40,305 nucleotides of DNA from Sulfurimonas sp. (lineage in GTDB: Bacteria > Campylobacterota > Campylobacteria > Campylobacterales > Sulfurimonadaceae), in NCBI GenBank assembly GCA_027064045.1, contig JAMOQK010000044.1:1-40305 (forward strand), in the 5' to 3' direction. Every line of letters starts with the position of its first letter. The stretch's first letter is position 1. The position numbers and the translations under genes are program-made. Below are positions 307 to 39,366 of this stretch, piece after piece. Below the pieces are notes generated by a model that worked only from the letters and a program-made list of their open reading frames with translations, did not search any database and was not told where the DNA came from.

Positions 307-2112
307 CCCTTTTAAAAGACCACCTGCTTCTTTACCTAATTGTTTTTTCAACTCTTTTGAAATCGCTTTTTTAGCCTCTTTTTTCATAAGTGCAGTCGCA
401 TCAACCTCAACCTTAGGAGAGTTTACATCACCACTTAATTTTACAGTGATAGGGTTGTGGTTTGCCTCTATATCTATCTTAGATTTTATCTTTTTGGTTT
501 TTGTATTTAAATGAGTATTTTTTGTTTTTATAGAAGAAGTATTTGATTTTAAATCAAGTGAAGCTAAAATATTTTCTTTGTTTATATCTGCTCCAACATC
601 ACCTTTAAATACTTCAGCACACATATCAATCTTAGCATACTGTTTTATAAGTGCAAATACCTGATTTTTTGTAAATTTTCCATCAACTAAATGACCATCA
701 AGTTTACCTTTTTTATGAACCAAGTTATAATCAACTTTTGCATTTAAATGTGATTTAAAAATCTCAGGGTAAATCAACATATGTAAAATATCTAAAGTTT
801 GCACAGATGTCAAATCTGCATGAAAATCATCATTATGAAGTTTTGCATCAAGTTTTCCACCAGCTATATTTGAATGAGCTGTAAAATCCAAATCTTTTGC
901 TTTTTTTATCTCTCCGTTGGCAGTGATACCACCTCTCATATGTCTCTCAGTTACAAAGTAAAGTTTATCTAAAGATGGCACTTTTACAACATAATCACTC
1001 ACCAAAGAACTATCAGATAATTTAAAAGTAGCTTTTTTTACATCCAAATTTGCTAATGATGTCCTTAGTTTCATCGCTGTATCTATTTTTTTTGTTTTTA
1101 TATTATTTACCATCGAGAGTGCATATTTAAACTTTGGCATAAGAGATTTAAACTTATAAACTTTAGTTAGATGTTTATTATCCAACTTTCCATTCATACT
1201 AACTCTATTTACCAAGTCACCCTCTTTACCTTTTAGAGTACCTTTTAGTTTTAAATCTCCTTTTACATCTACATTTGTTATAGGTTTTAAAACTGCCAAC
1301 TCTTTTACATCAACACCATATTTTATATCCATTTTTAAAGGTTGAGGGGTAACTTTCCCTGATGAACTTAATTTTGCAAGATTTGAACTAAGCAAATAAA
1401 TATAATCAACATCATCCCCTTTTAGTTTTGCATCAAGGTTCATACTAAAAGCAGTTTGAGGGATACTAACATTAAAATCACTTTTCATTATCTTAGTATT
1501 TAATCTGCCATTTTTAGTTCGAAGCTTAATATCTCCATCCATGGCATGTGGAGTTATATCTTTAAAGTTTATATCAAGATTTATATCTGAAGATGCGTAA
1601 GCACTTTGATTTAACATATAAAGAAGTTTAGATAATTTAAGTGTATCAATCTTAGCAATAATAGAAGTTGGATTTAACTCAGTAAGTTCAACATGGTAAG
1701 TTGTGTTACTTTTTGCAACATCACTTATACCATCAACTTCTATAAAAGCCATATCTCCTTTAACTTTACCATTTGTATAAAAATCTCCATGCAATAGCAA
1801 ATTTGTTACAGGTTTAAGTGTGGTAAGATTTTTAAATTTTACATCATAATTCACATCAAAAGCTTGAGAGAAAAGAGAGTATGTACCTTTTATATATACT
1901 GTATTTTCTTTATTTAAATGCAACACTATATTAAAGTCACTCATACTAAGGGAAAAAACCTCAAGCTTACTATCTAACTTCGTTTGCTCTTTTATTTTTC
2001 CTTCAATTATAGGACTTAATATACTATTTCCAAAAGATGTAAAGGCAAAAACATATACCACTACAACTAAACCAATCAAAATACCGACTAACCATCCTAA
2101 AAACTTCATCAT
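298..2112 (-). CDS. AsmA-like / DUF748-type membrane-anchored protein (604 aa)
   Basis: N-terminal TM segment (FLGWLVGILIGLVVVVYVFAF), long beta-rich repetitive body, AsmA-like architecture; convergent with and overlapping comF by 9 nt. Confidence 0.6.
   Translation of the reverse strand: MMKFLGWLVGILIGLVVVVYVFAFTSFGNSILSPIIEGKIKEQTKLDSKLEVFSLSMSDFNIVLHLNKENTVYIKGTYSLFSQAFDVNYDVKFKNLTTLKPVTNLLLHGDFYTNGKVKGDMAFIEVDGISDVAKSNTTYHVELTELNPTSIIAKIDTLKLSKLLYMLNQSAYASSDINLDINFKDITPHAMDGDIKLRTKNGRLNTKIMKSDFNVSIPQTAFSMNLDAKLKGDDVDYIYLLSSNLAKLSSSGKVTPQPLKMDIKYGVDVKELAVLKPITNVDVKGDLKLKGTLKGKEGDLVNRVSMNGKLDNKHLTKVYKFKSLMPKFKYALSMVNNIKTKKIDTAMKLRTSLANLDVKKATFKLSDSSLVSDYVVKVPSLDKLYFVTERHMRGGITANGEIKKAKDLDFTAHSNIAGGKLDAKLHNDDFHADLTSVQTLDILHMLIYPEIFKSHLNAKVDYNLVHKKGKLDGHLVDGKFTKNQVFALIKQYAKIDMCAEVFKGDVGADINKENILASLDLKSNTSSIKTKNTHLNTKTKKIKSKIDIEANHNPITVKLSGDVNSPKVEVDATALMKKEAKKAISKELKKQLGKEAGGLLKGLF
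1542..1552 (+). repeat. TGGCATGTGGA motif copy
   Basis: Exact 11-mer, inside the AsmA-like gene (antisense reads PHA). Confidence 0.8.
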
Positions 2113-2954: not shown

Positions 2955-4841
2955 ATGAGTAAAGTAATAGGAATAGATTTAGGAACAACAAACTCTTGTG
3001 TAGCAGTTTATGAAGGTGGTGAAGCTAAAATCATCCCAAATGCAGAGGGTAAAAACACAACTCCATCAGTTGTAGCATTTACTGATAAAGGTGAAGTTTT
3101 AGTTGGTGATCCAGCAAAAAGACAAGCTATCACAAACCCTGAGAAAACAATCTCATCTATCAAAAGAATCATGGGTCTTATGATGAATGAAGAAAATGCA
3201 AAAGAAGCACACGATAAAGTAACTTATAATATAGTAGATAAAGATGGTAGTGCTGCTGTTGATGTAGCTGGAAAAATTTACACTCCTCAAGAGATAAGTG
3301 CTAAAATCCTTAGCAAACTAAAAGAAGATGCAGAGAGCTACCTTGGTGGTAAAGTAACTGATGCAGTTATCACAGTTCCAGCATACTTTAATGATAGCCA
3401 AAGAAAAGCTACAAAAGATGCAGGTACTATCGCAGGATTAAATGTACTAAGAATTATCAATGAGCCAACTGCTTCTGCACTTGCTTATGGACTAGAGTCT
3501 AAAAGTGAAGAAAATGTACTTGTTTATGACCTTGGTGGTGGTACTTTTGATGTTACTACACTAGAGATTAGTGATGGTACTTTTGAAGTTCTTTCAACTG
3601 ATGGTAATGCATTTTTAGGTGGTGATGACTTTGATAACAAAATCGTTGACTTCTTAAATGATGAGTTTAAATCAACTCACGGTATTGAGCTTAAAAACGA
3701 CAAGATGGCTCTTCAAAGATTAAAAGATGCAGCTGAAAATGCTAAAAAAGAGTTAAGTAGTGCAACTGAAACTGAGATAAACCTACCATTTATCACTATG
3801 ACAGAAGCAGGACCTCAACACTTAGTTGTAAAACTAACTCGTGCAAAATTTGAGGGTATGATTGCTAATCTTATAGATGAGACTATGGAACATATCAAAA
3901 CAGCTATGAAAGAAGCAGATCTTGATAATAACGAAATCAAAGAGATTATCATGGTTGGTGGTTCAACTCGTGTTCCTGCTGTTCAAGAAGCAGTAAGTAA
4001 ATTCTTTGGTGGGAAAGAGCTTAACAAAGGTGTAAACCCTGATGAAGTTGTTGCTGCTGGTGCTGCTATTCAAGGTGGTGTTTTAAGAGGTGATGTTAAA
4101 GATGTTCTACTTCTTGATGTTACTCCACTTTCACTTGGAATTGAGACTTTAGGTGGTGTTGCTACTAAAATCATTGAAAAAGGTACAACAATACCAGTTA
4201 AAAAATCTCAAATTTTCTCAACTGCAGAAGACAACCAACCAGCTGTAAGCATATCAGTTGTTCAAGGTGAAAGAGAATTTGCAAAAGACAATAAATCTTT
4301 AGGTCTTTTTGAGTTAGGTGATATTCCACCAGCTCCAAGAGGTGTGCCACAAATCGAAGTTACTTTTGATATTGATGCAAATGGTATCTTAACTGTTAGC
4401 TCAACTGATAAAGGTACAGGTAAATCTCAATCTATCACAATCAGTGGTTCTTCAGGACTAAGTGAAGAAGAGATTGAAAAAATGGTACAAGATGCAGAAG
4501 CACACAAAGCTGAAGATGAAGAAAGAAAAGCTATGGTTGATTTAAGAAACCAATCAGATGCTCTTATAGCTCAAACTGAAAAATCAGTAGAAGAAATGGG
4601 TGATAAACTTGAAGCTGAAGAAAAAGCGAAAATTGAAGCTGCAGTAACTGACCTAAAAGAAACTCTAAAAGATGAAAATTCTACTAAAGAGCAAATTGAA
4701 GAAAAAGTAAAAGCATTAACTGAAGCTGCTCACAAAATGGCAGAAGAGATGTACAAAAAAGAACAAGCTGGTGAAGCAGGACAAGCTGATACTAAAGCTA
4801 AAAAAGATGACGATGATGTTATCGACGCAGAGATAGAATAA
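2955..4841 (+). CDS. dnaK: Molecular chaperone DnaK (Hsp70)
   Basis: 628 aa; [49 protein letters not shown]-terminus. Confidence 0.98.
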
Positions 4842-4849
4842 TCTCTTAT

Positions 4850-4871
4850 TCCACATGCCATGGCATGTGGA
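4850..4871. terminator. 22-bp perfect palindrome TCCACATGCCATGGCATGTGGA between convergent dnaK and pflA; two head-to-head copies of the TGGCATGTGGA motif, possible bidirectional terminator
   Basis: Perfect dyad symmetry read directly; located 9 nt after the dnaK stop and 25 nt from the pflA stop. Confidence 0.55.
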
Positions 4872-4895
4872 TCTTTCAAAAATTAACATCTCCTC

Positions 4896-7265
4896 CTAAA
4901 GATTTTTAGCATCTTTGGCTAGTTTTGCCCAAGCAGAAGACGGATCTGCTTTTATCGCTTCATCATAAGCTTTTTGAGCATTTTCCTCTTGCCATAATTT
5001 AGAATATACTGCACCTAGAAGATATTTTTGTCTTGCTCTTTGGGTTGGTGTCAACTTAATATTATCTAAAGATTTTATAACCTCTAAAGCTTTAGTATCA
5101 TTTCCTTTATCTATATATGCTTGATAGAGAGTAAATTCTACAAATGGACTTTGTGCATAAGATAATGATTCTTTTTGTATTTTCATAACTTCTTGAGCAT
5201 ATTTAATAATTAAATTATTGTCTTTTAGCTGACTTCCTATATTTATAACTGCTACATATCTATCTATGTCTTTATAACTAATACCATATACTTCTTGGAT
5301 TTTAACAATAGCATCTATCATTTTATCATTTTTTTCAAGTCTTTGATATGTATCAAAAAGCACTCTATAAACATCAAAATATTTAGATTTTTTATCATCT
5401 TCTATAAGTGATATTAACTCTTTTGAAGCTTGAAGTACCTCACTATAGTTACCAGTTGCAAAATCAACTTTTATATACCTGTAAAGCCATTTTTTTCTTT
5501 CATCTAAATCTTTTGATTTTAAATGTCTTAAAGCTATTTTTTTAGCTAATAAGAAATCAGCTCCTTTCATGGAACATTCATAAATACCATTATCCCACTT
5601 AGCAGATAAAGAAATTTTATAGTTTGTAGATATACTTAAAACATCTCTACACTCTCGTAGTTTTAAAGACTCTTTCATAGCACCAATAGCTGCCTCTTTA
5701 ACTAGCTCTTTAGATTTAGGATACAAACCTTCATCCAAAGAGGCAAGTGCATCTTTTAAATCCAATACTTCATTATATTTTTTATTTTTTAGAAGTAAAT
5801 TTGCCTTTTCATATAGTGCCTTATCCCCAATCATATCATTTTTATATTTTTTGATTAATTCATCATAATGATTTAATTTAGTTGTTAGATTTTCATCACC
5901 AACATCAAAGAATAAAGAATCTTTTGCTTCTTTTACTTCATCTTCAAAAGTACCATATTTAAAAGTATTTAGATATTTATTTAAAGCTTTTAAAGCTTCC
6001 TCTTTTTTATCAGTTTTAGATAACCATATACCTCTATCTTTTAATAAATTTTCATATTCATCATGATTTATATCTATCTGATCTAAAATAGCTTTAGCCA
6101 TTGCGGCAGCTGTTGCATAATCCCCTCCATCAGCAAAACTATACATCATATCCATAGAGGTAACTAAATCATTCATTAGAAAGTCAGGTTTAGCTTTAAT
6201 TATCTTTATAATATATTTTGCAGCCTCCTTCGCATTAGTATTTTCTATATAGTATTTTGCAAGATCATATGCAGCAGTAGATGCAACTTCAATGTCATCA
6301 GTTTGTACAAGTGCCTTTTTATACAATTTCAAAGCTTCTTTTATACCACCTGAAGACTCAAGCATCTCACCATTATAAATATAACCCCACTGAGCATAAA
6401 CAGAATCTCCATGTTCACTATATAGCCTATCGAAAAAATAATCTGCATCTACACTCATACCAACCATGGCATATGCCCGTGCAACCAATGATAAAACTTC
6501 TGCTATATTTTCATCTGAGGAAAACTCTTTTAGATATATCTTTGCCACATCTATAGTATTGTCATAATCTTTAAGGCTCATATATACTTTTATCTTATAA
6601 AAAAGCAACTCTGCTCTAAAAAGTGAATCAGGATAGTTTTGCACAACTTCATTAATAAGATCTAAACACTCTTCATATTTTTTTTCACTATAATATTTCT
6701 TAATTTTTATATAGTTAGCAACATCTTTAACTTTTTTAATATATACAGGTTTACCATCCATATCTAAACCACCTACAAAAGGCAATTTATCACTACTTAG
6801 TGTAAAAGGAAAGTTTATAGCTACATCTGATTTTTTTTCTTTTTTTATATATGGTATATTTTCTTTATAACCTATAATCAACCAATGTTTAGATAGTTTT
6901 GCATCTGCTTTAAAAATCGTATCTTCTTGTGATAAATTAAAAATCATAGGGTAAAGTTTCATCTTATAATATGCTTTTATAACTATAAAAAAAGTTTTGT
7001 TTTTAACCTGAGAAGTGATACTGAAAAAATCATTTTCTATTGTTTTAAATTTCTTTGTAGGTTGTTCGCTAAAAGCACAAATGATTTTTTCAACAACATC
7101 TAAATCAGATTTAATCTCTTGACACAAAAACTCTTTTGAATCTTTAAGATGAAGTGTAGAATAAGATTGAAAATTCTCTTGCGCACCAGTAAGAGAAACT
7201 TCTAGTGCGTAAAGATTTGGAATACCAAAAATAATCAAAAGGGCAAAGAATATATCTCTTAACAA
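4896..7265 (-). CDS. pflA: PflA-like TPR protein (paralysed-flagellum protein A; flagellar motor medial disk)
   Basis: 789 aa, signal peptide, multiple TPR-like repeats, immediately downstream of nuoN. In Campylobacter jejuni pflA (Cj1565c, ~788 aa) also sits next to nuoN (Cj1566c). TTG start. Confidence 0.8.
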   Translation of the reverse strand: MLRDIFFALLIIFGIPNLYALEVSLTGAQENFQSYSTLHLKDSKEFLCQEIKSDLDVVEKIICAFSEQPTKKFKTIENDFFSITSQVKNKTFFIVIKAYYKMKLYPMIFNLSQEDTIFKADAKLSKHWLIIGYKENIPYIKKEKKSDVAINFPFTLSSDKLPFVGGLDMDGKPVYIKKVKDVANYIKIKKYYSEKKYEECLDLINEVVQNYPDSLFRAELLFYKIKVYMSLKDYDNTIDVAKIYLKEFSSDENIAEVLSLVARAYAMVGMSVDADYFFDRLYSEHGDSVYAQWGYIYNGEMLESSGGIKEALKLYKKALVQTDDIEVASTAAYDLAKYYIENTNAKEAAKYIIKIIKAKPDFLMNDLVTSMDMMYSFADGGDYATAAAMAKAILDQIDINHDEYENLLKDRGIWLSKTDKKEEALKALNKYLNTFKYGTFEDEVKEAKDSLFFDVGDENLTTKLNHYDELIKKYKNDMIGDKALYEKANLLLKNKKYNEVLDLKDALASLDEGLYPKSKELVKEAAIGAMKESLKLRECRDVLSISTNYKISLSAKWDNGIYECSMKGADFLLAKKIALRHLKSKDLDERKKWLYRYIKVDFATGNYSEVLQASKELISLIEDDKKSKYFDVYRVLFDTYQRLEKNDKMIDAIVKIQEVYGISYKDIDRYVAVINIGSQLKDNNLIIKYAQEVMKIQKESLSYAQSPFVEFTLYQAYIDKGNDTKALEVIKSLDNIKLTPTQRARQKYLLGAVYSKLWQEENAQKAYDEAIKADPSSAWAKLAKDAKNL

Positions 7266-7285
7266 CCTTTACCCCTTTTTTTTAT

Positions 7286-8794
7286 CTAGTACCCACTATT
7301 ATATACAAATGCTGTTATAAACTCTAAAAGTGGATTTACAGCTACAAAAGCAAATATAGTTCCCACAGCAGCAAAACCAATGATAGATTTTAAAGCCAGT
7401 GTTGCATTTGATACATACATATGTCCATCATTACCCATAATCGGCTCTTTCATAAACATATATACTATAAGTTTTAAGTAGTAATAACCAGCTATAGCCG
7501 AGTTAAGTGCCATAATAAGTGCCAATATAGTATATCCACCTGAAACAGCTGAAGATATCATATAAAGTTTACCCCAAAATAGTGCAAAAGGTGGTACACC
7601 TGCAAGACTTAACATAAATAAAGCCATAATAGTAGCAGCAACTGGTGCTGTTTTTATCATACCTGCAAATTTATCATAACTATGGTCACTTGTTTGATAA
7701 TCTGGAAGGTGTTTTTGACGAGAAATCCATAGCATACTAAATGAACCAAGATTAGTAAAACTAAACAATATCCAATATAAAAGCAAAGCAGTATTTGACT
7801 GAGTAGTTCCTATAAGTATAGCTGCCATAACAAAACCAGCATGAGAAATAGAACTATATGCCAACATTCTTTTAACATCTGTTTGTACTAATGCCCACAT
7901 ATTTGCCAAAGTCATTGTAAGAACAACAACAATATAAAGTATCACTTCTAACCAAACAACACCACTATGGATTAAAAATTCAAAAAATCTCATAGCAACT
8001 ATAAAAGTAGCTATTTTTGGTACGATTGACATATAACCTGCCATAGACGCACTCGCACCCTCATAAACATCTGGCGCCCAAGTATGAAATGGTACAAGAG
8101 ATAGTTTAAATCCAAGCGCTCCGAGTAAGAAAACAACACCAATCAATACATAACCAATATCTGCATAATGATTTGCAGCTAAAACAGATGCTATCTGATT
8201 GATTTCAATACTTCCAGTTAAAGCATAAAGTACCATAGAACCAAAACTAAAGAAACCAGCAGCTAAAGCACCCATTGTAAAGTACTTAACAGCAGCTTCA
8301 AAAGATTTAGCACGGTTATGCATAGCAATTAGCGTATATAACGCTAAAGATGCAGTTTCAAGCCCAACAAACACAAGAATTAGATTATCAGTTGCAACCA
8401 TAAATTGGAATCCACCAATCATAAATAAGAAAAGTGCAAAAAATTCTGGATAACTAAACTCATGGAAACGCTTATGTGTTAATGATAATGGGATAAATAA
8501 CATTGAAGCACCCACTATTATAAACTGAGAAATAATAGCTAAACCATCAACAAGCATAACATCAAATGCACCTGTAACTATGCCATCTTGACTAAATATA
8601 CCAGCAGATTCAAGTAAAGAACCAAAATCCATTACTAGAAAAAGAAGACTTAACATTACATAAAGTGACTTATCTGAATTACTTTTAAACAGATCAACAA
8701 TTAAAATTAACAATGCCCCAGCAATTGGGATAAGCATCGGTGCGAGAGTCATCAAGTTTAATGACTCTAAAGAAATATTTACTGGCGCTAACAT
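7286..8794 (-). CDS. nuoN: NADH-quinone oxidoreductase subunit N
   Basis: 502 aa polytopic, proton-translocation family motifs ([15 protein letters not shown]), last nuo gene of operon. Confidence 0.95.
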
Positions 8795-10344
8795 TAGTGT
8801 GCCTCCTCTGCAGAAGTTCTAGTAACTTCAACTTTATCTAAAGTTGGTATTCTAGATTTTGCTTCGTCTGTAATAGATTTATCATGCATCAGTTGAACAA
8901 CTGATTCAACAGAATTGTTAATTGGATTAAGTAATACTTTTGGATAAACACCTAACCAAACAGTGATAACCACCAATGGAATCAATGCAATAAGTTCCCT
9001 TTTATTTACATCTGGAAGATTTTTATTTTCTTCTATTGTAACTTCACCAAAAAACATTTTTTTATAAGCTGCTAACATATAGATAGCACCAACAATAATA
9101 GCTGTACCAGCTAGCAGTGTTAAGATATGTGATTGTTGATAAAATCCTAATAAACTTAAAAACTCACCAACAAAGTTGATAGTAAGTGGAAGTCCAACAG
9201 AGGCCATCATCATGATACCAAAAATAGTTGCATATCTAGGCATAACATGAGCCAAGCCACCAAATTGATCCATCATTTTAGTGTGTCTTCTATCATAAAT
9301 CACACCAACAAGCAAGAACAATGCACCTGAGACAACACCATGAGCTATCATTAAGAAGATAGAACCACTAATACCTTCAACATTTAAAGCAAATGTACCA
9401 AGAATTATAACACCCATATGTGAAACTGATGAATAAGCAACAACCTGCTTAACATCTTCTTGAGCATAAGCAACCATCGCTGTATATATAATCATTATAA
9501 TAGCTAATACAGCTACAGGATACATAAAGTACACAGAAGCATCTGGGAAAAGTGGCAATGAAAAACGGATAAACGCATATGTACCCATTTTAAGTAAAAT
9601 TGCCGCTAATATTACAGAACCAATAGTTGGTGCTTGACCGTGGGCATACGGTAACCATGTATGAAATGGAAACATAGGAACCTTGATAGCAAAACCCATA
9701 AAAAATGCCAAGAACAACCAAAGCTGAAAACTCTCTGGTAAAACAAGTCTATACCAATCAAGTATCGCAAAACTCCACACACCTGTCGCTTGATAATAAA
9801 AATATGCCATAAATAACATACCAACCAACATAACAAGTGAACCTGCAAATGTATATAAAAAGAATTTAACAGAAGCATAAACTCTTAAAGGTCCACCCCA
9901 TGCACCGATAAGGTAAAGCATCGGCACAAGTGAAAGTTCCCAAAATACATAAAATAAAATCGCATCAAGCGCAACAAATACACCAGCCATTGTCATCTGT
10001 AAAAATAAAAGTGTAATTATCATGTTTTTCACATCTTTTGTATCGGTAAGTGAAGCTATACCAATCATAGTAAAAAATGCTGCCAATATAACAATAAACA
10101 AAGAGATACCATCTATCCCTATAGTATAGTTGATTCCAAATGCTGGAACTAATGGGAGATTTTCCATAAACTGCATACCAGAAGCAGTCGAATCAAAAGA
10201 AAACCAAAGAATCATTGCAAATACAAACTCTATAAATGCAACAGACACACCATAACTTCTAATACTATCTTTATGAATTGCAAATCCAAACACTGCTGCC
10301 AATGCTGGAAAGAAAATTAAAATCGATAAAATATGATCTAACAT
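8794..10344 (-). CDS. nuoM: NADH-quinone oxidoreductase subunit M
   Basis: 516 aa; ...[25 protein letters not shown]..., [12 protein letters not shown]. Confidence 0.96.
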
Positions 10345-10347
10345 CTA

Positions 10348-12270
10348 CTAAACTCCTAAACCTGATAGAACTACTCTAAGTCCATCAGAATGTCTTGCTG
10401 CTAGTCCAAAAACCACAGCTAATGATAACAGAACTACTATTCCAGTAACCATCCATTTAAGCATTGTAGATAGATTACCACTCTGCATTGCTCTTGTTGT
10501 ATCACCTGTTGTATATATAACTTTTGCTATACCATCAACAGAAGCATCAACAACTTTTTGATCTATCTCTTTCCAGAACACTTTTGAAAGTCCTCTATAT
10601 GGTTTAACAAGATAGTTTTCATAAAAATAAGGAATATAATACTGATTAATCAACAGTTTATATTTAAAACTATTTTCCATATCACTTGTTCCATCTGGAA
10701 GTTTAATATCTCTACTCATATATTTTTTATAAGCATAAGCGATAGCAAGTATAACAAATAGTTGAGTACCTATAGTCATCATCCAGAATGTTACATGAGA
10801 ATGTATATGATACTCTGTAGCACTTAAAATCTCTTCAACCATACTAAAGAAAGTTGTTCTAAATGCACCTGCAATAACAGCAAGGATAAGTAGAGGACTC
10901 ATAGCAACAAGCATAAATTTATACGCTTCATGCGGATGGAAACCAAATAATTTATATCTCTCTTCACCATGGAAAATAAGTGCAATAATTCTAAATGAAT
11001 AAAATGCAGTTAAACCAGCAGTTAACAGAAGTACCGTATAGATAATAAAATGGTGTTCAGCAAATGCAGCTTCTAAGATAACATCTTTTGAGAAGAATCC
11101 AGCAAGAGGGAAAAGACCAGCTAAAGCAACAGATGCTAAAGTCATCATAATCATAGAACCCTTCATAACCTTACCAAGTCCACCCATTTTAAATGGATCA
11201 AGTTCGCTATCCATCGCATGCATAACATTACCAGCACCAAGGAATAACAATGCTTTAAAGAAAGCGTGAGCCATTAAGTGAAACAATGCAACCCAATAAG
11301 CACCTAAACCAGCAGCAGCAAACATGTAACCTAGCTGTGAAAGTGTAGAGTAAGCGATAACTCTTTTAATATCACGATTAACAAGTGCCATAGATGCTGC
11401 AAACATTGCTACAAATGTACCAAGAGAAGCAATAAACAATCCAACATCAGGAATTAAACTATATAACTCATTTGAACGAACAACTAAATAAACACCAGCT
11501 GTTACCATAGTCGCAGCATGAATAAGTGCAGAAACCGGAGTTGGACCTTCCATCGCATCAGCAAGCCAAGTATGAAGTGGAAACTGTGCTGATTTACCCA
11601 TAGCACCAATAAAAAGAAAGATACCAATCATAGTAAGTGTTGAATTATCTAAAGTTTTAAAAGCTTCAAAAGCACCATCGTATTGTAATGTACCAGTATT
11701 CCAATAAACTAAAAAGATACCAATTAACATACCAAGGTCAGCAATACGGTTCATAATAAATGCTTCATTAGCTGCCCAACTAGCACTCTCTTTATGAAAC
11801 CAAAAACCAATCAATCCCCATGAACAAAGACCAACACCTTCCCAACCTATAAATAGACCAGCATAGTTGTCACTCATAACAAGGATAAGCATTGAAAACA
11901 CAAACGCAGATAACCATGCAAAAAATCTGTTAAAACCTTTATCGTGATCCATATAACCAATAGCATATACATGAACAACAGATGAAACGATAGTTACAAC
12001 CATCATCATAGTTACTGATACTTGATCTACAACAAATCCAAATGGTATATGAAGATGACCTGTTGATATCCATGTCATCAACTCAACATGAACACTCTCG
12101 CCAGTTGATAACACATGACCTAGTAAAACACTACTACTTAAAAAAGATACAACAAGTAGTGTACTTGGAATGATACCAGTGATGATTGTCTTAGGTTTAG
12201 CAGTAAAAAGTGCTGCAAAAAGAGAACCAACCAGTGGTGAAAACAATGCCACATATAAAAATAATTCCAT
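10348..12270 (-). CDS. nuoL: NADH-quinone oxidoreductase subunit L
   Basis: 640 aa; FPLHTWLADAMEGPTPVSALIHAATMVTAGVYLV, RVIAYSTLSQLGYMF. Confidence 0.97.
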   Translation of the reverse strand: MELFLYVALFSPLVGSLFAALFTAKPKTIITGIIPSTLLVVSFLSSSVLLGHVLSTGESVHVELMTWISTGHLHIPFGFVVDQVSVTMMMVVTIVSSVVHVYAIGYMDHDKGFNRFFAWLSAFVFSMLILVMSDNYAGLFIGWEGVGLCSWGLIGFWFHKESASWAANEAFIMNRIADLGMLIGIFLVYWNTGTLQYDGAFEAFKTLDNSTLTMIGIFLFIGAMGKSAQFPLHTWLADAMEGPTPVSALIHAATMVTAGVYLVVRSNELYSLIPDVGLFIASLGTFVAMFAASMALVNRDIKRVIAYSTLSQLGYMFAAAGLGAYWVALFHLMAHAFFKALLFLGAGNVMHAMDSELDPFKMGGLGKVMKGSMIMMTLASVALAGLFPLAGFFSKDVILEAAFAEHHFIIYTVLLLTAGLTAFYSFRIIALIFHGEERYKLFGFHPHEAYKFMLVAMSPLLILAVIAGAFRTTFFSMVEEILSATEYHIHSHVTFWMMTIGTQLFVILAIAYAYKKYMSRDIKLPDGTSDMENSFKYKLLINQYYIPYFYENYLVKPYRGLSKVFWKEIDQKVVDASVDGIAKVIYTTGDTTRAMQSGNLSTMLKWMVTGIVVLLSLAVVFGLAARHSDGLRVVLSGLGV

Positions 12271-12274
12271 ATCT

Positions 12275-12583
12275 CTACCCCCTCATCGTTGACATTTGTT
12301 CAAGGTCAATATTGTTATGACTTTTATGCCATACAATTAACAAACCAAGACCAACAGCAACTTCACTAGCAGCTATTGCAATTACAAAGAATGCAAACAT
12401 CTGCCCAGTTAAATCACCATAATAGTGTGAAATCGCAGCAAAAGAGATATTAACAGAGTTAAGAAGTATCTCAGTGGCGAAAAACAACATTAAAAGATTT
12501 TTTCGTCTCATAACACCAATCAAACCTATAGCAAATAGGATAGCTGATAGTACAAGATAATGATTTAGTCCTATTTCCATCAT
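12275..12583 (-). CDS. nuoK: NADH-quinone oxidoreductase subunit K
   Basis: 102 aa; GLNHYLVLSAILFAIGLIGVMRRKNLLMLFFATEILLNSVNI. Confidence 0.97.
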   Translation of the reverse strand: MMEIGLNHYLVLSAILFAIGLIGVMRRKNLLMLFFATEILLNSVNISFAAISHYYGDLTGQMFAFFVIAIAASEVAVGLGLLIVWHKSHNNIDLEQMSTMRG

Positions 12584-13161
12584 GAAAGCACCTTCTTATT
12601 TTTTTCTTCTCTCATATCTCTAATCTCAGCATCACTCATCTCAGTAAGAGACAGATCCATCTTCTTACCAGCTAAAACGATACCCGCTACCATAGCAACA
12701 AGCAACATCACTGCAGCAACCTCAAACGGTATAAGATATTTTGTAAACAATACAACACCAACTTCTTGTGTATTACCTACACCTTCTATAATTGGATAAA
12801 AAGCTGTAATATTGTCTGTAACCATAGGAGCTACAAAAATAACTACAACTAAAAAAGCTGCTAAGGTACTAAGTCCAAATATAATCAGACTATTTCCTTT
12901 CTTCTCTTTAACATCTCTTGTGGTATCAAAAAACATCATACCAAAAGCATAAAGAGCCATAACAGCACCAGAATAAACAACAATTTGCACAGCACCTAAA
13001 AAGTCAGCCCCAAGGATAAAGAAAAACGCTGATATAAAAATCATCCCTGCTGCTAACGATGTTAGTGCATATAACGCCTGTGCTGTTGTAACAGTTATGA
13101 AAAACATTACAATCGTTAAAAAAGCAAACAGATAAAAAGCAATCGCTTCAAACATACTCAA
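12580..13161 (-). CDS. nuoJ: NADH-quinone oxidoreductase subunit J
   Basis: 193 aa polytopic; ALTSLAAGMIFISAFFFILGADFLGAVQIVVYSGAVMALYAFGMMFF; between nuoK and nuoI. Confidence 0.95.
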   Translation of the reverse strand: MSMFEAIAFYLFAFLTIVMFFITVTTAQALYALTSLAAGMIFISAFFFILGADFLGAVQIVVYSGAVMALYAFGMMFFDTTRDVKEKKGNSLIIFGLSTLAAFLVVVIFVAPMVTDNITAFYPIIEGVGNTQEVGVVLFTKYLIPFEVAAVMLLVAMVAGIVLAGKKMDLSLTEMSDAEIRDMREEKNKKVLS

Positions 13162-13166
13162 TCTCC

Positions 13167-13787
13167 TTAATATGCTAGAGGTGTTTTTTTAACACGCTCA
13201 TCTTCATGTGGTGTAATAGCACCAAAACCTTCGAACTCTAGCTGATTACCAACTTTCATCGTATCTAATGGTGTCAACATATCTTCATACATTGTAAAGT
13301 GTTCCCTTTGCTCACTTGCATTTTCATAGCGTCCACCATGAGTAATTGCAAGTTCAGGACAAACCTCAGCACAAAAACCACAATAGATACAACGACCAAG
13401 ATTGATAGAATATTCACTAACCTCTTTACGAGAGTTTTCATCTCTTTTTGTTTCAATTCTTATACAATTAGCAACACATATCTTTTCACAAAGACCACAA
13501 CCTATACATCTCTCAGTATCACTCTCCCACAATCTTTTCATCTCATGGATAGCACGATACCTAGGACCTATTGGCATCTTCTCTTCTGGATAACTAACAG
13601 TATGGATCTCAAATTTAAAAAACTCTCTCATAACAACCCAAAGACCAACAAAAAGTTCAAGTCTAAAAGTTCTTTTAACTACTCTTTTAAATTTATCCCA
13701 TGGCTCTGTCGGATAATCTTCAATATCTACTAAGAAATATTCATTACTGACATTTCTATTGTTAAACTGTTCATCTTTCATCATCAC
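13167..13787 (-). CDS. nuoI: NADH-quinone oxidoreductase subunit I (2x[4Fe-4S])
   Basis: 206 aa; CIGCGLCEKICVANCIRIE and CIYCGFCAEVCPELAIT. Confidence 0.96.
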   Translation of the reverse strand: MMMKDEQFNNRNVSNEYFLVDIEDYPTEPWDKFKRVVKRTFRLELFVGLWVVMREFFKFEIHTVSYPEEKMPIGPRYRAIHEMKRLWESDTERCIGCGLCEKICVANCIRIETKRDENSRKEVSEYSINLGRCIYCGFCAEVCPELAITHGGRYENASEQREHFTMYEDMLTPLDTMKVGNQLEFEGFGAITPHEDERVKKTPLAY

Positions 13788-13790
13788 CCC

Positions 13791-14777
13791 TTACATCATC
13801 ACTATAGCAGTGACTAAGATATTTAGTACCGCTACTGGCATTAAGATTTTCCAACATAACATCATCAACTGATCTGGTCTAACATCTGGCCATGCAGCTC
13901 TTGTCCATAGGAAAAAGAAAAAGAAAAATGACATTTTACCTAACAATGCTAAAGCACCCAAGAAACTACCATCTCCATATCCACCCAAGAAAAGGATAGG
14001 AATCATAAATGAGATAAAGAACATATTTGCATACTCACCGATAAAGAAAAGACCCCATCTCATACCACTATATTCAGTACCAAAACCATCAATAATCTCA
14101 TGATCATTTGCTATAAGGTGAAACGGTGTTCTACCTGTTTCAGCAAATGCCGCTATCCAAAACAGGATAAATGCTACTGGCTGAGTCCAAACCATCCAAG
14201 AAGTTATCCCACCTGCTTGATATTCGTTAAAGTCAATCAAAGAAAGTGAACCAACCATCATAATTGGAGCTAAAATCGATAAACCAGTTACAACCTCATA
14301 AGAGATAAAAACTGCAGCACCCCTCGCAGCCGATAGCAATGCAAATTTATTTGCAGATGCCATACCACCAAGAAGTGGTCCATAAAGACCAACGCCCATA
14401 ATACCTAAGATATATAAAATACCTATATTTATATCTGCAATAATTGGATGTACTTCATATCCAAATATTGTAAAAGAAGGTAAGAAAGGGATAGCTGCTG
14501 CTGCTATAAAAGCAGTTGCAGCAGTGATAACAGGAGCTATTTTAAAGACAGGTGCTACAACATTTGTTGGAACAATATCTTCTTTTGTAAAAAGTTTAAT
14601 AGCATCTGCACCAAATTGTAAAACCCCATAAGGTCCAACATTCATAGGTCCAAGTCTTCTTTGCATAAAAGCAAGGATTTTTCTCTCAAAATAAGTACCT
14701 ATCCCTGCTAATGCAGAAAACACAAGCATTACTATAACAATTTTTATAATTGTTTCTATTAAATATGCCATTTCCAT
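13791..14777 (-). CDS. nuoH: NADH-quinone oxidoreductase subunit H
   Basis: 328 aa; RRLGPMNVGPYGVLQFGADAIKLFTKED, AETGRTPFHL, WTRAAWPDVRPDQLM. Confidence 0.97.
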   Translation of the reverse strand: MEMAYLIETIIKIVIVMLVFSALAGIGTYFERKILAFMQRRLGPMNVGPYGVLQFGADAIKLFTKEDIVPTNVVAPVFKIAPVITAATAFIAAAAIPFLPSFTIFGYEVHPIIADINIGILYILGIMGVGLYGPLLGGMASANKFALLSAARGAAVFISYEVVTGLSILAPIMMVGSLSLIDFNEYQAGGITSWMVWTQPVAFILFWIAAFAETGRTPFHLIANDHEIIDGFGTEYSGMRWGLFFIGEYANMFFISFMIPILFLGGYGDGSFLGALALLGKMSFFFFFFLWTRAAWPDVRPDQLMMLCWKILMPVAVLNILVTAIVMM

Positions 14778-14779
14778 AT

Positions 14780-17269: not shown

Positions 17270-19451
17270 TTATAACCTCTATTTTGACTTGATTGTATCT
17301 ATAGTTTGAAGATTTTGAATCCAGCATGAAAGTTGGGTTATATGCAACCGTACCTTTCATATGTCTATCCACTCTAAAGTGTCTAACAAACTCAATTCCA
17401 TCAACAATAAACTTAACTCTGTCTCCCGATTTAATTTTAGATGCCATTGCAAACTGTTCTGAACCTACAAGTTCATCTTTTACTTTTATCTGCTTACAAT
17501 CTTTAGTAAAAGGGCTAAACTGGCTAAGTGGGTTTCTGCTATATACAACACTACCGTTAAACTCACCCAACTCTTCAACTTCATCTAATTTTACACTATC
17601 GTTATTTTTAACTGATTCGATTTTATATCCACGATAAGCATTTCCAACATTATCATAATAATTATCTAAATCATCAAATTCTATCTCTTTAAAGCCGAGT
17701 TTAGATGTATAATCTATAACATTTTTACTTTCAACACCAAGTGAAGATGCTATATCATTAAGTTCATATCCATGATATGCTACACCTGCATTTAAAACAA
17801 CTAAGTTTTTATCTATATTTACAAATGTTCCCTCTTGCTGATTAAGAGAAGGCATATCTAAATCGCCCTCCCCTTTTGCACTTAAAGTAAAATCTGCTTT
17901 AACATTATATCCAACGCTAAATCCATCTTCTATTTTATCTAAATCACATATCAAAGATACACCCAGTGTATTTGTTGATGGTGGAACAACTATAACTTTA
18001 AAAGGTGTGTATTTTTGTATCAAACCAACTATCATAGCTATATTTTTAGCTCGTGAATGGTTTATGACATCTTCACCAATAACCAGCATCGGCTTCTTTT
18101 TTCTTAAATATTTTTGTTTTAATTCATCTAACTCTTCTTCAGAAATATTACTCTCACCACATAAGTAACCAAAATCTAACGAATCAAAAAACTCTTTTTG
18201 AGATGATTTATCTTCTATAAATATATCTGCAACCATTGACAAAGCTGCTTCTTCACTACCAACTTCATTCTTAATAAACATAGAAACAACATTTGAGATA
18301 GGTGCTTCCTCAATAGGGTGAATACTGGCAACAAAGGCTTTTTTATAACCAACTGCCTGAGCCATAGCAAACTTAACCATTGGATTGTCACTCTGTATAG
18401 ATCCACCAATACTAATGATAAAATCACTATTTGACAAATCTTTTATATCTCCATTATAAAGAGATTTATTTGAAGTAGATGCGAAATTATCCATAAACTC
18501 TTGATATTTTCTAGCATCATCATTTACAAGATTAAATCCAAGTTTTTTCTTCAATTCATTTAAAACAAACGCTTCTTCATTAGTTATAAAAGAGTTAAAA
18601 ACAACATTTTTAGCACTTTTAAAAGCTTCAACCGCTTTTTCAAAAGCTGAAGTATCTTTAGTTTGCACTCTATTTTGAAAATCAAAGCCAAATCTACCAG
18701 CACCACAAAGTGAAGAAAAATCAGCTTCATTTGTAACTCTTCTAATCTCACCACCTTTTGATTCATAGTAAAGTGAACAAGCACTAGAACAATGCGCGCA
18801 ACTTGATGGAACTTTTGTAAGTTCCCAAGCGTTTGATGTATATTTAAAATCAGTTGATGCCATAGCTCCAACAGGACAAACAGATATACACTCCCCACAT
18901 TGGATACAATTAGCAAGATTTATCTCTATACGAGATTTATATCCACCAGCTTTTATAAACAGAGCCTCATTTCCCACAACTTCATTACAAACTGTTGTAC
19001 ATTTTTCACAAAGAATACATAATGCTGGATCATAAGTATGAACACCCCACTTTTTCTTCTTACGAGCTTGATCACGCACAGCAAAATTTTGTTGTTCTAC
19101 ACCAAATTCTAAAGTTTTATTTTGTAACTCACACTCTCCACTTTTATCACATACACCACACTGTAAAGGGTGATTTACATTATAAAGCTTCATAATGTTT
19201 TGTCTCTCTTTGTAAAGAATTTGTGAGTCAGTAGTAATCTCTGCACCCTCTGTTGGAGGTGTATTACAACTTAAAACAAGACCGTCCACACCCTTGGCTT
19301 CAACAACACACATCCTACACGAAGCATTTGGAGTTGCTTTTGCGAGATAACACATAGTTGGGATATATATACCCTCACGACGCGCAACCTGAAGGATAGT
19401 TTCACCTTTTTGAGCCTTAACAGAGATACCATTAATCTTAAAATTAACCAT
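17262..19451 (-). CDS. NADH-quinone oxidoreductase subunit G, copy 2 (729 aa)
   Basis: Same Fe-S motif set (CYLAKATPNASCRMCVVEAKG, CGVCDKSGECELQ, CEKCTTVC, CIQCGECISVCP, CAHCSSAC); tandem paralogue overlapping copy 1 by 8 nt. Confidence 0.92.
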   Translation of the reverse strand: MVNFKINGISVKAQKGETILQVARREGIYIPTMCYLAKATPNASCRMCVVEAKGVDGLVLSCNTPPTEGAEITTDSQILYKERQNIMKLYNVNHPLQCGVCDKSGECELQNKTLEFGVEQQNFAVRDQARKKKKWGVHTYDPALCILCEKCTTVCNEVVGNEALFIKAGGYKSRIEINLANCIQCGECISVCPVGAMASTDFKYTSNAWELTKVPSSCAHCSSACSLYYESKGGEIRRVTNEADFSSLCGAGRFGFDFQNRVQTKDTSAFEKAVEAFKSAKNVVFNSFITNEEAFVLNELKKKLGFNLVNDDARKYQEFMDNFASTSNKSLYNGDIKDLSNSDFIISIGGSIQSDNPMVKFAMAQAVGYKKAFVASIHPIEEAPISNVVSMFIKNEVGSEEAALSMVADIFIEDKSSQKEFFDSLDFGYLCGESNISEEELDELKQKYLRKKKPMLVIGEDVINHSRAKNIAMIVGLIQKYTPFKVIVVPPSTNTLGVSLICDLDKIEDGFSVGYNVKADFTLSAKGEGDLDMPSLNQQEGTFVNIDKNLVVLNAGVAYHGYELNDIASSLGVESKNVIDYTSKLGFKEIEFDDLDNYYDNVGNAYRGYKIESVKNNDSVKLDEVEELGEFNGSVVYSRNPLSQFSPFTKDCKQIKVKDELVGSEQFAMASKIKSGDRVKFIVDGIEFVRHFRVDRHMKGTVAYNPTFMLDSKSSNYRYNQVKIEVINE

Positions 19452-19466
19452 TCAATACCCCCCTTC

Positions 19467-21464
19467 TCATGTTGCAACCATAGCGATATAATAACATCGC
19501 ATACAACGGTTAGCTTCATCTATGGCTTCATCTTGTGTGAAACCAAGATTTACCTCTTTATTATTATCTCGTCTCACCTCAGCATCAAGAACTTCACTGT
19601 TTTGTCGAACCAATCCAGGTAACCAACCAGTAACTTTTTCTTTTTTGTTATAAACACGAAGCCTATGTAGATGATCTTCCATAATTTCATTATCTGTTAA
19701 AGTAATTTCACCACCATTTTGGATAAATCTACTTATAACTGAAGACGCTCTTTTTGCTTGACCAACTGCATTTACAATGGTCATAGGACCATATTCACAA
19801 TCCCCAGAAGCAAAAATACCTTTACGAGATGTCATATAATCTTTACCATTTGTTTTAATGGTACCCCAAGATGTCATCTCTATCTCCCATTCTTCTGGAA
19901 GAAGTGCTAAATCGGCACTTTGCGAAACAGCAGGAATAAGGAAATCTGTCTCTATCGTATATGATGCACCATCAATTTTCACTAATTGATCACGACCACC
20001 GTTAGGATCTGGTACAAGTTCAAACTTATCAATCAAAAGAGATTTTAAAACATCATCTTCATCGTTCATAGCGTTCACTGCAGAGTGAAAAAGAAATTCT
20101 ACACCCTCTTCAACAGCTTCATGATACTCTTCATAAGTTGTATTTCTAATAATAGTTTTCTCATCACGACGATAAATCATATAAACTTTTTTAGCATTAG
20201 CTCTAATTGCACAACGAACAACATCCATAGATGTAAATCCACCACCAACACAAACAACAGTTTTACCAGTTAAATCAACCGCTTCACCTATGCCATATTT
20301 ATCCCAAAGATTAATCTGATCTAACATCTCAATAGCTGACCAATAACCATCTATTTCAGGTCTTTCATTGTTACAACGAACTTTTTTTGATATACGAGTT
20401 CCAGTTGCAATCATAGTTGCATCATACTCTTTTTCAAATCTTCTCATATCATCTGCATTGATTTTTGAGTTAGTTATAAAATTAACTCCCATATCTTTTA
20501 CACATTCTATATCTTGATTGTATTTACCTATTGGCATTCTATATTCAGGAACACCAACTGCAACCTCACCACCAAGAACTGGAAGCTCTTCATAAACATC
20601 AACCTTAACACCCTCAGCCGCTAAATAATAAGCCGTTGTCAAACCTGCAGGACCAGCTCCAATAACTGCAACTTTTTTGTCAATAGGATTTTTCTTATTT
20701 AATGGATGAAAAAATCCAAAACCATGATCAGTTTCATAATCAGCACCAAGTCTTTTTAATTCCATGATAGAAACTGGCTCATCAAGATTTGTTCTACGAC
20801 AAGCATCTTCACAAGGGTGTGGACAAACACGACCACAAACATGAGCTAAAGGCATAGTTTGACGAGTTGCTTTTAAGGAATCATCAAATCTTAAATCTCT
20901 AACACCCTCAATATAACCAGGAATATCAACATGTGCAGGACATGCATCTGTACAAGGAGCAGTTATCTTAGCGATATACCCAACCTCATCATAATAGTGT
21001 TTAGATGGTTTTTTATTCTCTATACAATCTAAAAAAGTATCCTCAAAATGGTGCATTAAATCAAGTATAGGATTTGGTACAGTTTTACCAATCTCACATT
21101 TTGAAGTAATTTGCATACTTTTTGCAATCTCTTTTAGATGATCCAAATCAGCTTTTTCACCTTCACCACGAGCAATCTTATCAAGAGAATCATATAAAAT
21201 TCGTCCACCCCATCTTCCAGGCGCACATCTTCCACATGCCTCTGAGTATTCTTGATATTGTGCAGCGTATTCCATAGCTAAACGGATTACATCAACATCC
21301 TCATCAAAAAGGGACACACCATCCCAACCTATAAAGGCCTTGGAAGTGCGATGATTATCATACTGTGCTGGTAGATTATAAGCTGATTCTTCCCACTCTT
21401 CTTGAGGTTTGTCAACATTATTGATAAACTCACCTCTCCAAGTAGAAAAATAGACTTTACTCAC
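19467..21464 (-). CDS. NuoF-like [4Fe-4S] domain fused to GltD-like FAD/NAD(P) oxidoreductase (665 aa)
   Basis: N-terminal NuoF C-domain-like YSEACGRCAPGRWGGRILYDSLDKIARGEG...TSKCEIG, then CTDACPAHVDIPGYI...CGRVCPHPCEDACRR, VAVIGAGPAGLTTAYYLA, VVCVGGGFTSMDVVRCAIR..YRRDE (GltD family). Occupies the nuoF position. Confidence 0.9.
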   Translation of the reverse strand: MSKVYFSTWRGEFINNVDKPQEEWEESAYNLPAQYDNHRTSKAFIGWDGVSLFDEDVDVIRLAMEYAAQYQEYSEACGRCAPGRWGGRILYDSLDKIARGEGEKADLDHLKEIAKSMQITSKCEIGKTVPNPILDLMHHFEDTFLDCIENKKPSKHYYDEVGYIAKITAPCTDACPAHVDIPGYIEGVRDLRFDDSLKATRQTMPLAHVCGRVCPHPCEDACRRTNLDEPVSIMELKRLGADYETDHGFGFFHPLNKKNPIDKKVAVIGAGPAGLTTAYYLAAEGVKVDVYEELPVLGGEVAVGVPEYRMPIGKYNQDIECVKDMGVNFITNSKINADDMRRFEKEYDATMIATGTRISKKVRCNNERPEIDGYWSAIEMLDQINLWDKYGIGEAVDLTGKTVVCVGGGFTSMDVVRCAIRANAKKVYMIYRRDEKTIIRNTTYEEYHEAVEEGVEFLFHSAVNAMNDEDDVLKSLLIDKFELVPDPNGGRDQLVKIDGASYTIETDFLIPAVSQSADLALLPEEWEIEMTSWGTIKTNGKDYMTSRKGIFASGDCEYGPMTIVNAVGQAKRASSVISRFIQNGGEITLTDNEIMEDHLHRLRVYNKKEKVTGWLPGLVRQNSEVLDAEVRRDNNKEVNLGFTQDEAIDEANRCMRCYYIAMVAT

Positions 21465-28272: not shown

Positions 28273-28735
28273 CCATATCCTTAAATTTTAATATGATTTT
28301 ATTTTTTTTATCTTTAAAATATATGGCATGTGGATTTACTTTATAAACAATCCCTACATCCCTGTTTTTTATATGTTGTTCAAAACCATCAATAGTTTTT
28401 ATAAGGTTTTTACCATCATAAATTTTATGCCCCAAAATAATATTTTGAAGTATATCATCAGGGTATGCAGAACTTAGGTAATCTCCATTAAAACTTCTCT
28501 TACTCATGCACCCTTCAGTTGTACAAACAAGATGATTTATAGTTATCTTTTGCACAACCTTACCAGCTACAAAAAGCTCTAGTTCTATACTTTTATCACT
28601 ATTTCTAACATAACCAATATCTGCAAACTTTAGTTTTGGTGACTTTATAATAATGATTTTTGTTTGAGTTGTCTTATAATTTTTAATACTACAACCACTA
28701 AAAATCAATACAAAAAATAAAAAAATAAATCTCAT
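28265..28735 (-). CDS. Small lipoprotein, hypothetical (156 aa)
   Basis: Lipobox FVLIFSGCS; no recognised domain; operon-like with nfo (8-nt overlap). Confidence 0.65.
28324..28334 (+). repeat. TGGCATGTGGA motif copy
   Basis: Exact 11-mer, inside the lipoprotein gene (antisense reads PHA). Confidence 0.8.
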
Positions 28736-28990: not shown

Positions 28991-29001
28991 TCCACATGCC
29001 A
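28991..29001 (-). repeat. TGGCATGTGGA motif copy (plus strand TCCACATGCCA)
   Basis: Exact 11-mer spanning the ATG of the DUF234-type gene. Confidence 0.8.
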
Positions 29002-30781: not shown

Positions 30782-31645
30782 TTAGTTCCAACTAGCACAA
30801 AGAGTAGTATATTTATCTGGTTTTCTATCTCTTAAAAGTCCCCAATACTCCCTTTGTCTTGCATTTTCTTCCAAATCAAACTCCCCATAGATTATCTCCT
30901 CTTTATCTCTTGAAGCCTCTGCTATCTTCTTACCTGTATAATCTGTAATAAATGATGAACCATAAAAAGTAATTTCACAACTCTTACCAACTTCAAGTCC
31001 TACTCTGTTTGCCACAACAACAGGCACTGTATTTGTCGCAGCATGTCCCATTTGAACCCTTTGCCAATGCTCCTTTGAATCTATATCTACTTCTGGTTCG
31101 CTCCCTATTGCTGTTGGATAAAAAATAATTTCTGCACCCATAAGTGTTAAAACTCTTGCAGTCTCACAAAACCACTGATCCCAACAGATACCTACACCTA
31201 TCTTCCCACATGCCGTATCATAAACTTTAAAACCACTATCCCCAGTTTTAAAATAAAATTTTTCCTCATATCCCGCTCCATCTGGTATGTGAGTTTTTCT
31301 ATAATTATCCATCACTCTACCATCAGAATCTATCACAACCAAAGAGTTAAAATAATCATCTCCACTCCTCTCAAAATAACTCACCAACAATACCACTCCT
31401 AATTCTTTTGCTAATACTATAAACTCTTTTACAAGTGGATTATTATTTAACTCTTTTGCCCAAGAAAAATATTTTTTATCCATATCTTTACAAAAATACA
31501 ACCCCTCAAACAACTCAGGTAAAAGTATGATATTAGCTCCTTTAGCAGAAGCCTCTTTCACTAATAATTTTGCTTTTGTAACATTAGCTTTTCTATCTTC
31601 TTCCATACTCATCTGAATAGCGCTGACTTTAACCATATATAACAC
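30782..31645 (-). CDS. aguB: N-carbamoylputrescine amidase (nitrilase superfamily)
   Basis: LLPELFEG..., HIPDGAGYEEKFYFKTGDSGFKVYDT, GVGICWDQWFCETARVLTLMGAEIIFYPTAIG. Likely start MVKVSAIQM. Confidence 0.88.
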   Translation of the reverse strand: MLYMVKVSAIQMSMEEDRKANVTKAKLLVKEASAKGANIILLPELFEGLYFCKDMDKKYFSWAKELNNNPLVKEFIVLAKELGVVLLVSYFERSGDDYFNSLVVIDSDGRVMDNYRKTHIPDGAGYEEKFYFKTGDSGFKVYDTACGKIGVGICWDQWFCETARVLTLMGAEIIFYPTAIGSEPEVDIDSKEHWQRVQMGHAATNTVPVVVANRVGLEVGKSCEITFYGSSFITDYTGKKIAEASRDKEEIIYGEFDLEENARQREYWGLLRDRKPDKYTTLCASWN

Positions 31646-38091: not shown

Positions 38092-38139
38092 GGCGAAATT
38101 ATATTATAATAAACTTATTTTTTAAATATGGGGCGAAAA

Positions 38140-39366
38140 ATGGCAGTAAAAGTTGAAGAAGCATTAGATATTATATACAAGTTAACAAAAACAACAACAC
38201 CTATCTTGTTACCAATCGAAAAAGTTTTGGGGTATGTATTGGCTGAAGATATTGTAGCCACCTACAATCTACCACCATACGATAATTCAGCAATGGATGG
38301 GTATGCTGTAAAACTAGAAGATAGTGGTAAATGCGTAAAAGTAAAACATACTATATTTGCTGGTGATAATTCCCATGAAGTTTTGGCATGTGGATATGGT
38401 ATAAAAATTATGACAGGTGCTAGAATTCCAGAGGGTTGTGAGTGTATAGTTCCAGTAGAAGACACTCAAGAGTGTGAAGATGGAGTTGTATTACCACAAA
38501 AACTCAAGTTAAAAAATCATATAAGAGATTGTGGTGAAGATATAAAAAGTGGTGAGCAACTTTTAACAAAAGGTCAAAGACTACATGCTCATCACATCAC
38601 AATCTTAGCTTCTCAAGGCATTTCACATATAAAAGTGCATAAAAAACCACGAGTTGCACTATTTGGCTCAGGAAGTGAGCTTAAAATGCATTTTGAAAAT
38701 GTAACAGAATATCAACTATACAACACGAACACACCAACATTTATGGCAAGATGTGAAGAGCTTGGTTGTGAAGTTGAGTTTATAGGTACGGCACAAGATA
38801 GTTTAGAATCACTAAAAGAACATATACAAAATGCTTTAGGAGCAGATTTAATTGTAACAAGTGGTGGTGTTAGTGTTGGGGATGCTGACTATACAAAAGA
38901 AGCTTTTAAATCTTTTGGAGATGAAATATTTTTTGATAAAATCGAAATAAAGCCTGGTAAACCGACAACTTTTGGTCGCATAGGCGATACTCTGGTTTTA
39001 AACCTACCAGGAAATCCACTAGCTGCAGCACTTAACTTTGAGCTTTTTGGCAGAAGTATTATACTTGGTCTTAGTGGAGAGGATACAAAATATATAAATA
39101 GTATCAGTGCTAAGATGAAAGAGGATTATAAACTAAAAGCTGGTAGAAGAACACTTGTTCCAGGTTGGTTTGATGGAAAGTATTTCATGGCATGTGAGAA
39201 ATTTGCACCAGGCATGGTAAACCCTTTGTCAATCTCAAACTCCTTTATAATGGTAGATGAAAGTGTAGGATTCTTGGCATGTGGAAATGAAGTAAAAGTT
39301 ATACCAACCAGATTTGATTTTAATTCTCATAAGCAAGTAAACTTAATAACTAAAGATATTTGTTGA
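38140..39366 (+). CDS. moeA: Molybdopterin molybdenumtransferase MoeA (ORF extends to 38128; start MAVKVEEALDII preferred)
   Basis: PPYDNSAMDGYAV, IKIMTGARIPEGCECIVPVEDT, VTSGGVSVGDADYTKEAF, LVLNLPGNPLAAALNFELF. Confidence 0.93.
   Translation: MAVKVEEALDIIYKLTKTTTPILLPIEKVLGYVLAEDIVATYNLPPYDNSAMDGYAVKLEDSGKCVKVKHTIFAGDNSHEVLACGYGIKIMTGARIPEGCECIVPVEDTQECEDGVVLPQKLKLKNHIRDCGEDIKSGEQLLTKGQRLHAHHITILASQGISHIKVHKKPRVALFGSGSELKMHFENVTEYQLYNTNTPTFMARCEELGCEVEFIGTAQDSLESLKEHIQNALGADLIVTSGGVSVGDADYTKEAFKSFGDEIFFDKIEIKPGKPTTFGRIGDTLVLNLPGNPLAAALNFELFGRSIILGLSGEDTKYINSISAKMKEDYKLKAGRRTLVPGWFDGKYFMACEKFAPGMVNPLSISNSFIMVDESVGFLACGNEVKVIPTRFDFNSHKQVNLITKDIC
38384..38394 (+). repeat. TGGCATGTGGA motif copy in moeA
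   Basis: Exact 11-mer; encodes LACG. Confidence 0.8.
39275..39285 (+). repeat. TGGCATGTGGA motif copy in moeA
   Basis: Exact 11-mer; encodes LACG. Confidence 0.8.

Follow-up and report, generated by a model that had tools for sequence, protein, structure and literature searches.

The window analysed here is a 40,305-nucleotide stretch of a Sulfurimonas-type metagenome-assembled genome (MAG) of 1.53 Mb in 82 contigs. Within it, dnaK and a pflA-like gene converge on a gap of 54 bp (dnaK ends at 4841 and pflA at 4896), which contains a perfect 22-bp palindrome, TCCACATGCCATGGCATGTGGA (4850-4871), composed of two full 11-mers meeting head to head with a gap of 0 (Table 1). The sequence and coordinates given in the preliminary description proved exact, and the convergent setting was confirmed by the DnaK equivalog match and by a full-length phmmer match of the opposing gene product to the solved PflA chain 9hmf_K (E = 1.9e-59). 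That description had also called this gap the only one of its kind. It is the sole convergent junction in the window with room for a hairpin, but three further convergent junctions exist, two of which overlap (29937/29940 and 33175/33178) while the third has an 8-nt gap (36991/37000). On either RNA strand, the palindrome is predicted to form a hairpin with a 9-bp stem and a 4-nt loop, with fold energies (54-nt folds) of -14.4 on the dnaK side and -15.1 kcal/mol on the pflA side. At the density of the word, about 0.01 gapless 11-mer pairs are expected per genome (an arithmetic estimate); the genome holds two exact ones, that of the window and one at C39:5382-5403, and a single C-flanked variant at L047:1178.

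Table 1. Genes flanking the palindrome and copies of the 11-mer and its 9-mer core in the window
Feature	Position	Strand	Basis	Remarks
dnaK	2955..4841	+	DnaK equivalog match	Stop 8 bp before palindrome
Left arm, full 11-mer TCCACATGCCA	4850..4860	+	Word search	
Right arm, inverted 11-mer	4861..4871	-	Word search	Directly abuts left arm
pflA-like, TPR flagellar motor protein	4896..7265	-		Convergent; stop codon 24 bp from palindrome
Single 11-mer	1542..1552	-	Word search	Inside ORF
Single 9-mer core	21232..21240	+	Word search	
Single 11-mer	28324..28334	-	Word search	Inside ORF
Single 11-mer	28991..29001	+	Word search	Overlaps called ATG of gene starting 28996
Single 9-mer core	31206..31214	+	Word search	
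Single 11-mer	38384..38394	-	Word search	Inside ORF 38128-39366, read as -ACG-
Single 11-mer	39275..39285	-	Word search	Also inside ORF 38128-39366, read as -ACG-

The 11-mer occurs seven times in the window (0.01 expected) and its 9-mer core, CCACATGCC, nine times (0.14 expected); a 16.4-kb run free of the 9-mer (4861-21231) spans pflA and nuo-like respiratory genes. The genome as a whole carries 216 copies of the 11-mer, 107 forward and 109 reverse, against 0 of the reversed control word. In the sampled stretches (423 kb), CCACATGCC was the top-ranked over-represented word, with 167 copies against 0.7 expected under a third-order model. The word can be generalised as (A)T(T)[TC]CCACATGCC[AG]A, a 9-12-mer present in hundreds of copies, far above chance and on both strands, as are the DNA uptake sequences of Neisseriaceae (DUS) and Pasteurellaceae (USS).

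Sequence logos gave [TC]CCACATGCC[AG]A[AG] in the window's genome and ATTTCCACATGCC[AG]A in two relatives, with information falling to background about 3 nt outside the motif. Single mismatches were in excess at position 1 and positions 8-9 and not in the inner core; this combination of a strict inner core with looser edges is likewise characteristic of DUS/USS systems. Because conservation stops about 3 nt past the core, the word does not belong to a longer repeat or a transposon. Its dispersal by a mobile repeat of the MITE, REP or BIME kind, which the high copy number and some tandem 17-bp arrays might suggest, was rejected on the same ground and is exceedingly improbable, given that copies lie inside conserved genes and that the word occurs as dialects rather than as element subfamilies. 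In two genomes, tandem arrays of the motif with a period of 17 were seen at contig ends or close to them (L096:1-99, consisting of 5.8 units of GTTTGGCATGTGGAAAT; L058:1-60; and L074 near 12221), and longer arrays of this type may break assemblies. Other over-represented words were TAGGTGCGAA in G004 (9 copies against 0.1 expected in 126 kb; L212-L218) and, separately, GTCATTGCGA and AGATTGCTTC in G065 (L057-L076) and G370 (L185-L194), the last two probably representing another repeat family.

In the sampled stretches, 157 of the 167 copies (~94%) lie outside close inverted pairs. Single copies track coding density, and genic copies are divided between the sense (79) and antisense (77) orientations. 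Since most copies are single, genic and in either orientation, the word acts as a signal at the level of DNA and not mainly of RNA. A mere terminator or 3'-end hairpin word, whose single copies would be decayed remnants, would account for close pairs directly after stop codons; as only 10 of the 167 copies are in such pairs, single copies occur within ORFs in either direction and the paired stems lack a U-tract, this explanation was rejected for a word that is mostly single and genic, and we consider it very unlikely.

When about 85,000 GTDB genomes were searched for exact matches to the 22-bp palindrome, 28 stretches were recovered, almost all of them titled as Campylobacterota (Sulfurimonas, Sulfuricurvum, Campylobacterales and Helicobacteraceae); a single record titled just as 'bacterium' contained 381 copies of the 11-mer. 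The organisms bearing the motif are mostly represented by MAGs. Within the genus, two dialects could be distinguished among 120 genomes: dialect A, with at least 90 copies of CCACATGCC in 15 genomes (maximum 1,433), and dialect B, with at least 80 copies of CTACATGTA in 20 genomes (maximum 769). The two are mutually exclusive except in G472 and, weakly, in G245 and G500, and most members of the genus have neither. No enrichment of CCACATGCC was detected outside the genus among the order genomes sampled. Word discovery in single genomes recovered TCTACATGTA[AG]A from G006, G032 and G004; in G036 it gave a less strict form, TTCCACATG[CT][AT]A, and in G031 and G012 nothing comparable. All dialects have the core ACATG in common, and such dialects with a shared core between related species are a hallmark of DUS/USS systems. 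Mapping dialect A on a DnaK tree required seven changes, and its distribution is therefore patchy. One perfect 22-bp palindrome was also located at a convergent junction in G021/G064 (L015:6231-6252), which lacks dialect A (9 copies of CCACATGCC in all) and in which it is a transfer or a relic.

These features also bear on the proposal that the motif has another DNA-level role, such as chromosome organisation, methylation or a repair landmark in the manner of HIP1, KOPS or Chi, and not uptake. Motifs of the HIP1 type are likewise abundant in genes on both strands, and dialect B is almost palindromic (CTACATGTAG). Dialect A, however, is not palindromic, and the absence of strand bias (107/109), unlike Chi or KOPS, together with the balance of sense and antisense copies, rules out a strand-biased motif of that type; the same holds for CTACATGTA, with 391 forward and 378 reverse copies in G452 and equally unbiased counts in G032. 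Compared with the cyanobacterial HIP1 octamer, which is also a short, hugely over-represented and chiefly genic word, HIP1 is palindromic and has one form, whereas the main Sulfurimonas word is non-palindromic and has dialects and inverted pairs at 3' ends. As inverted pairs at gene ends, fixed-core dialects and absence from prophage (see below) fit uptake sequences, we regard a role of this other kind as improbable.

The longest motif-free stretch sampled in the window's genome (L048; 18.0 kb, for which the host rate predicts 7.1 sites) is a prophage encoding terminase, portal, capsid, prohead protease and DnaB; a LAGLIDADG-type endonuclease domain lies within its large terminase (prophage L048:2704-17697). 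An IMG/VR contig (IMGVR_UViG_3300026512_000697; L267) that shares most of its 31-mers with this prophage and encodes a portal protein 100% identical to that of L048 has 0 sites in 21.5 kb, against 8.5 expected at the host rate, and the 22-bp palindrome has no match among 2.9 million viral contigs. Moreover, a low-GC polysaccharide region (L091) and a Tn7-type region of G317 are motif-poor or empty. In this small sample (L048, L267 and L091) the word is thus depleted in phage and foreign DNA, as DUS and USS are; the depletion is suggestive and not exhaustive, because two other motif-poor stretches (L037 and L093) carry core genes.

In its abundance, dialects and absence from prophage, the word matches what is known of DNA uptake sequences and the dialects they form. 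The word resembles Neisseriaceae DUS, whose receptor is ComP, in being a short AT-flanked word with hundreds to thousands of strand-equal copies, fixed-core dialects and inverted pairs at gene ends (PMC3630211, PMC12616744, PMC2397512), and differs from it in having the core ACATG instead of CTG, belonging to another phylum, forming U-less pairs and being patchy in the genus. With Pasteurellaceae USS (AAGTGCGGT, ACAAGCGGT) it shares genic copies, edges looser than the core, two dialects and inverted pairs near terminators; USS has the core GCGG, and the Sulfurimonas word has no long AT-rich flank past ~3 nt. Known DUS dialects vary around a fixed core (PMC3630211, PMC12616744), and since the known cores are CTG for DUS and GCGG for USS (PMC12616744) and the logos lack both, neisserial DUS or Pasteurellaceae USS proper could be ruled out. 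A literature search, outside which subscription papers and preprints fell, returned nothing relevant on the word or on uptake sequences in Sulfurimonas. To our knowledge, DNA uptake sequences and their dialects have so far been described only from Neisseriaceae and Pasteurellaceae.

Inverted pairs, defined as inverted copies with 0-14 nt between the arms and counted separately for the two arrangements, numbered 14 + 32 in G317, 19 + 22 in G411, 41 + 44 in G429 and 5 + 4 in the window's genome; random placement would give ~1.4 of each arrangement in G317 (an arithmetic estimate). Leaving aside those at contig ends, 63 distinct intergenic pairs were counted, of which 33 were at convergent, 28 at co-directional and 2 at divergent junctions. 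Convergent junctions make up 11% of gaps of at least 20 bp and supply 26% of gap-facing gene ends, so that the pairs are enriched at them relative to both the junction share (p = 7e-16) and the 3'-end share (p = 5e-6), values that ignore the kinship of the genomes. Divergent gaps comprise ~25% of intergenic bases and yet hold just those 2 of 63 pairs. The pairs are found close behind stop codons (median 12 nt; 30 nt or less in 96 of 109 cases), and the stem extends 2-4 bp beyond the 9-mers in most pairs. The genome-wide enrichment of inverted pairs between convergent genes by which the preliminary description proposed to judge the palindrome is therefore present, and the over-representation of such pairs at gene ends is a further trait in common with DUS and USS.

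Published DUS/USS pairs have been described as Rho-independent terminators (PMC2397512, PMC12616744). Like these terminators, the Sulfurimonas pairs place a stable, GC-rich stem-loop a few nucleotides after the stop codon, where it can be common to convergent genes; unlike them, they have no U-tract after the stem. At 109 gene ends, the 8 nt following the stem contained 2.84 T on average, compared with 2.69 for ordinary downstream stretches, and at least 5 T were present at 18 of them (16.5%, against a background of 12.7%). A terminator scan at the window site found no terminator. An intrinsic terminator is not supported because no U-tract follows the stems, and the Rho-independent termination known for DUS/USS pairs is not carried over to those of Sulfurimonas. 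Thus the terminator role raised in the preliminary description did not hold for the intrinsic type, and its caution over the missing U-tract was correct. A 3'-end hairpin that would assist a Rho-dependent stop or protect the RNA 3' end is more likely than an intrinsic terminator.

The dnaK 3' end was compared among 11 motif-bearing genomes with sequence reaching downstream of the gene, and in 10 of these dnaK was followed by a pair, or by a full word whose partner was imperfect or variant; spacing and arrangement varied. In this comparison the gap between the arms was 2 in the window's genome and G429, 5 (G063) or 7 (G411) with the order reversed, 6 in G067 and 16 in G062, and variant words occurred in G036, G370, G317 and G035. 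In G006, a dialect B genome, dnaK is followed by a pair of the dialect B word. Several genomes without dialect A carry unrelated hairpins at this position, with U-tracts in G030, G031, G021 and G245 and without them in G004, G005, G012 and G016. This is most simply explained if the dnaK end benefits from a hairpin, the arms of which have been supplied repeatedly by uptake words. Alternatively, the word may be an uptake sequence whose pairs have no RNA role, gene 3' ends being the place where extra sequence does least harm, with which the missing U-tract and the background level of T after the stems would agree. The excess of pairs over random placement in G317, their scarcity in divergent gaps and the re-population of dnaK ends in 10 of 11 genomes, where motif-less relatives carry other hairpins, argue against this alternative, which we consider unlikely.

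The machinery expected for DNA uptake, type IV pilins and ComEC, is present, as in DUS/USS systems. ComEC was found in all 12 genomes tested, motif-less ones included, and in most of them the coordinates place pilin genes no more than about 12 kb from comEC. ComEC and pilins are not diagnostic of an uptake-word system, because genomes without the motif have them too. Sequence-specific uptake receptors are minor pilins such as ComP, and PpdA has been proposed for this role in Pasteurellaceae. In the window's genome, three pilin genes lie between flgB and priA (L042:13741-15176; gene names taken from ORF translations), a neighbourhood that recurs in G317, where two pilin genes occupy the flgB-priA place ~7 kb from comEC. 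These flgB-priA pilins are candidate uptake receptors; since the pilins of the comEC-linked cluster match generic pilin families and PDB pilins only, the receptor amounts to a list of candidates.

Taken together, we favour, with a probability of roughly 0.7, the interpretation that the word is a DUS-like label of naturally competent Sulfurimonas and that its close pairs double as hairpins at gene 3' ends. What is observed of the word (abundance, strand symmetry, a strict core, dialects, prophage depletion and 3'-end placement) agrees with this, and the initial suggestion of a DUS/USS-like element is borne out by its behaviour, namely its copy number, presence on both strands, dialects and inverted pairs at gene ends. 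It is also probable that Sulfurimonas (Campylobacterota) has an uptake-sequence system of its own, independent of those of Neisseriaceae and Pasteurellaceae, with at least two exclusive ACATG dialects and with U-less bidirectional hairpins, repeatedly at dnaK. In this model, of which the uptake preference, the receptor and the RNA effect are the parts that we infer, a surface pilin would prefer word-bearing DNA, and recombination of such DNA would spread and keep copies across the shared genome and not in phages or recent arrivals. Close inverted pairs would have a second role as symmetric hairpins at gene 3' ends, the one at 4850-4871 serving dnaK and pflA at once. Lacking a U-tract, the hairpin most likely helps Rho to end transcription or trim its products, shields mRNA 3' ends from exonucleases, or does both.

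If uptake is confirmed, self-labels would have been invented a third time, by Sulfurimonas, an unrelated lineage of a different phylum, which would mean that self-labelling of DNA arises repeatedly. It would then provide an independent case for studying how such words spread, which receptor recognises them and whether dialects isolate species, as well as a case of uptake words shaping gene-end hairpins without a U-tract.
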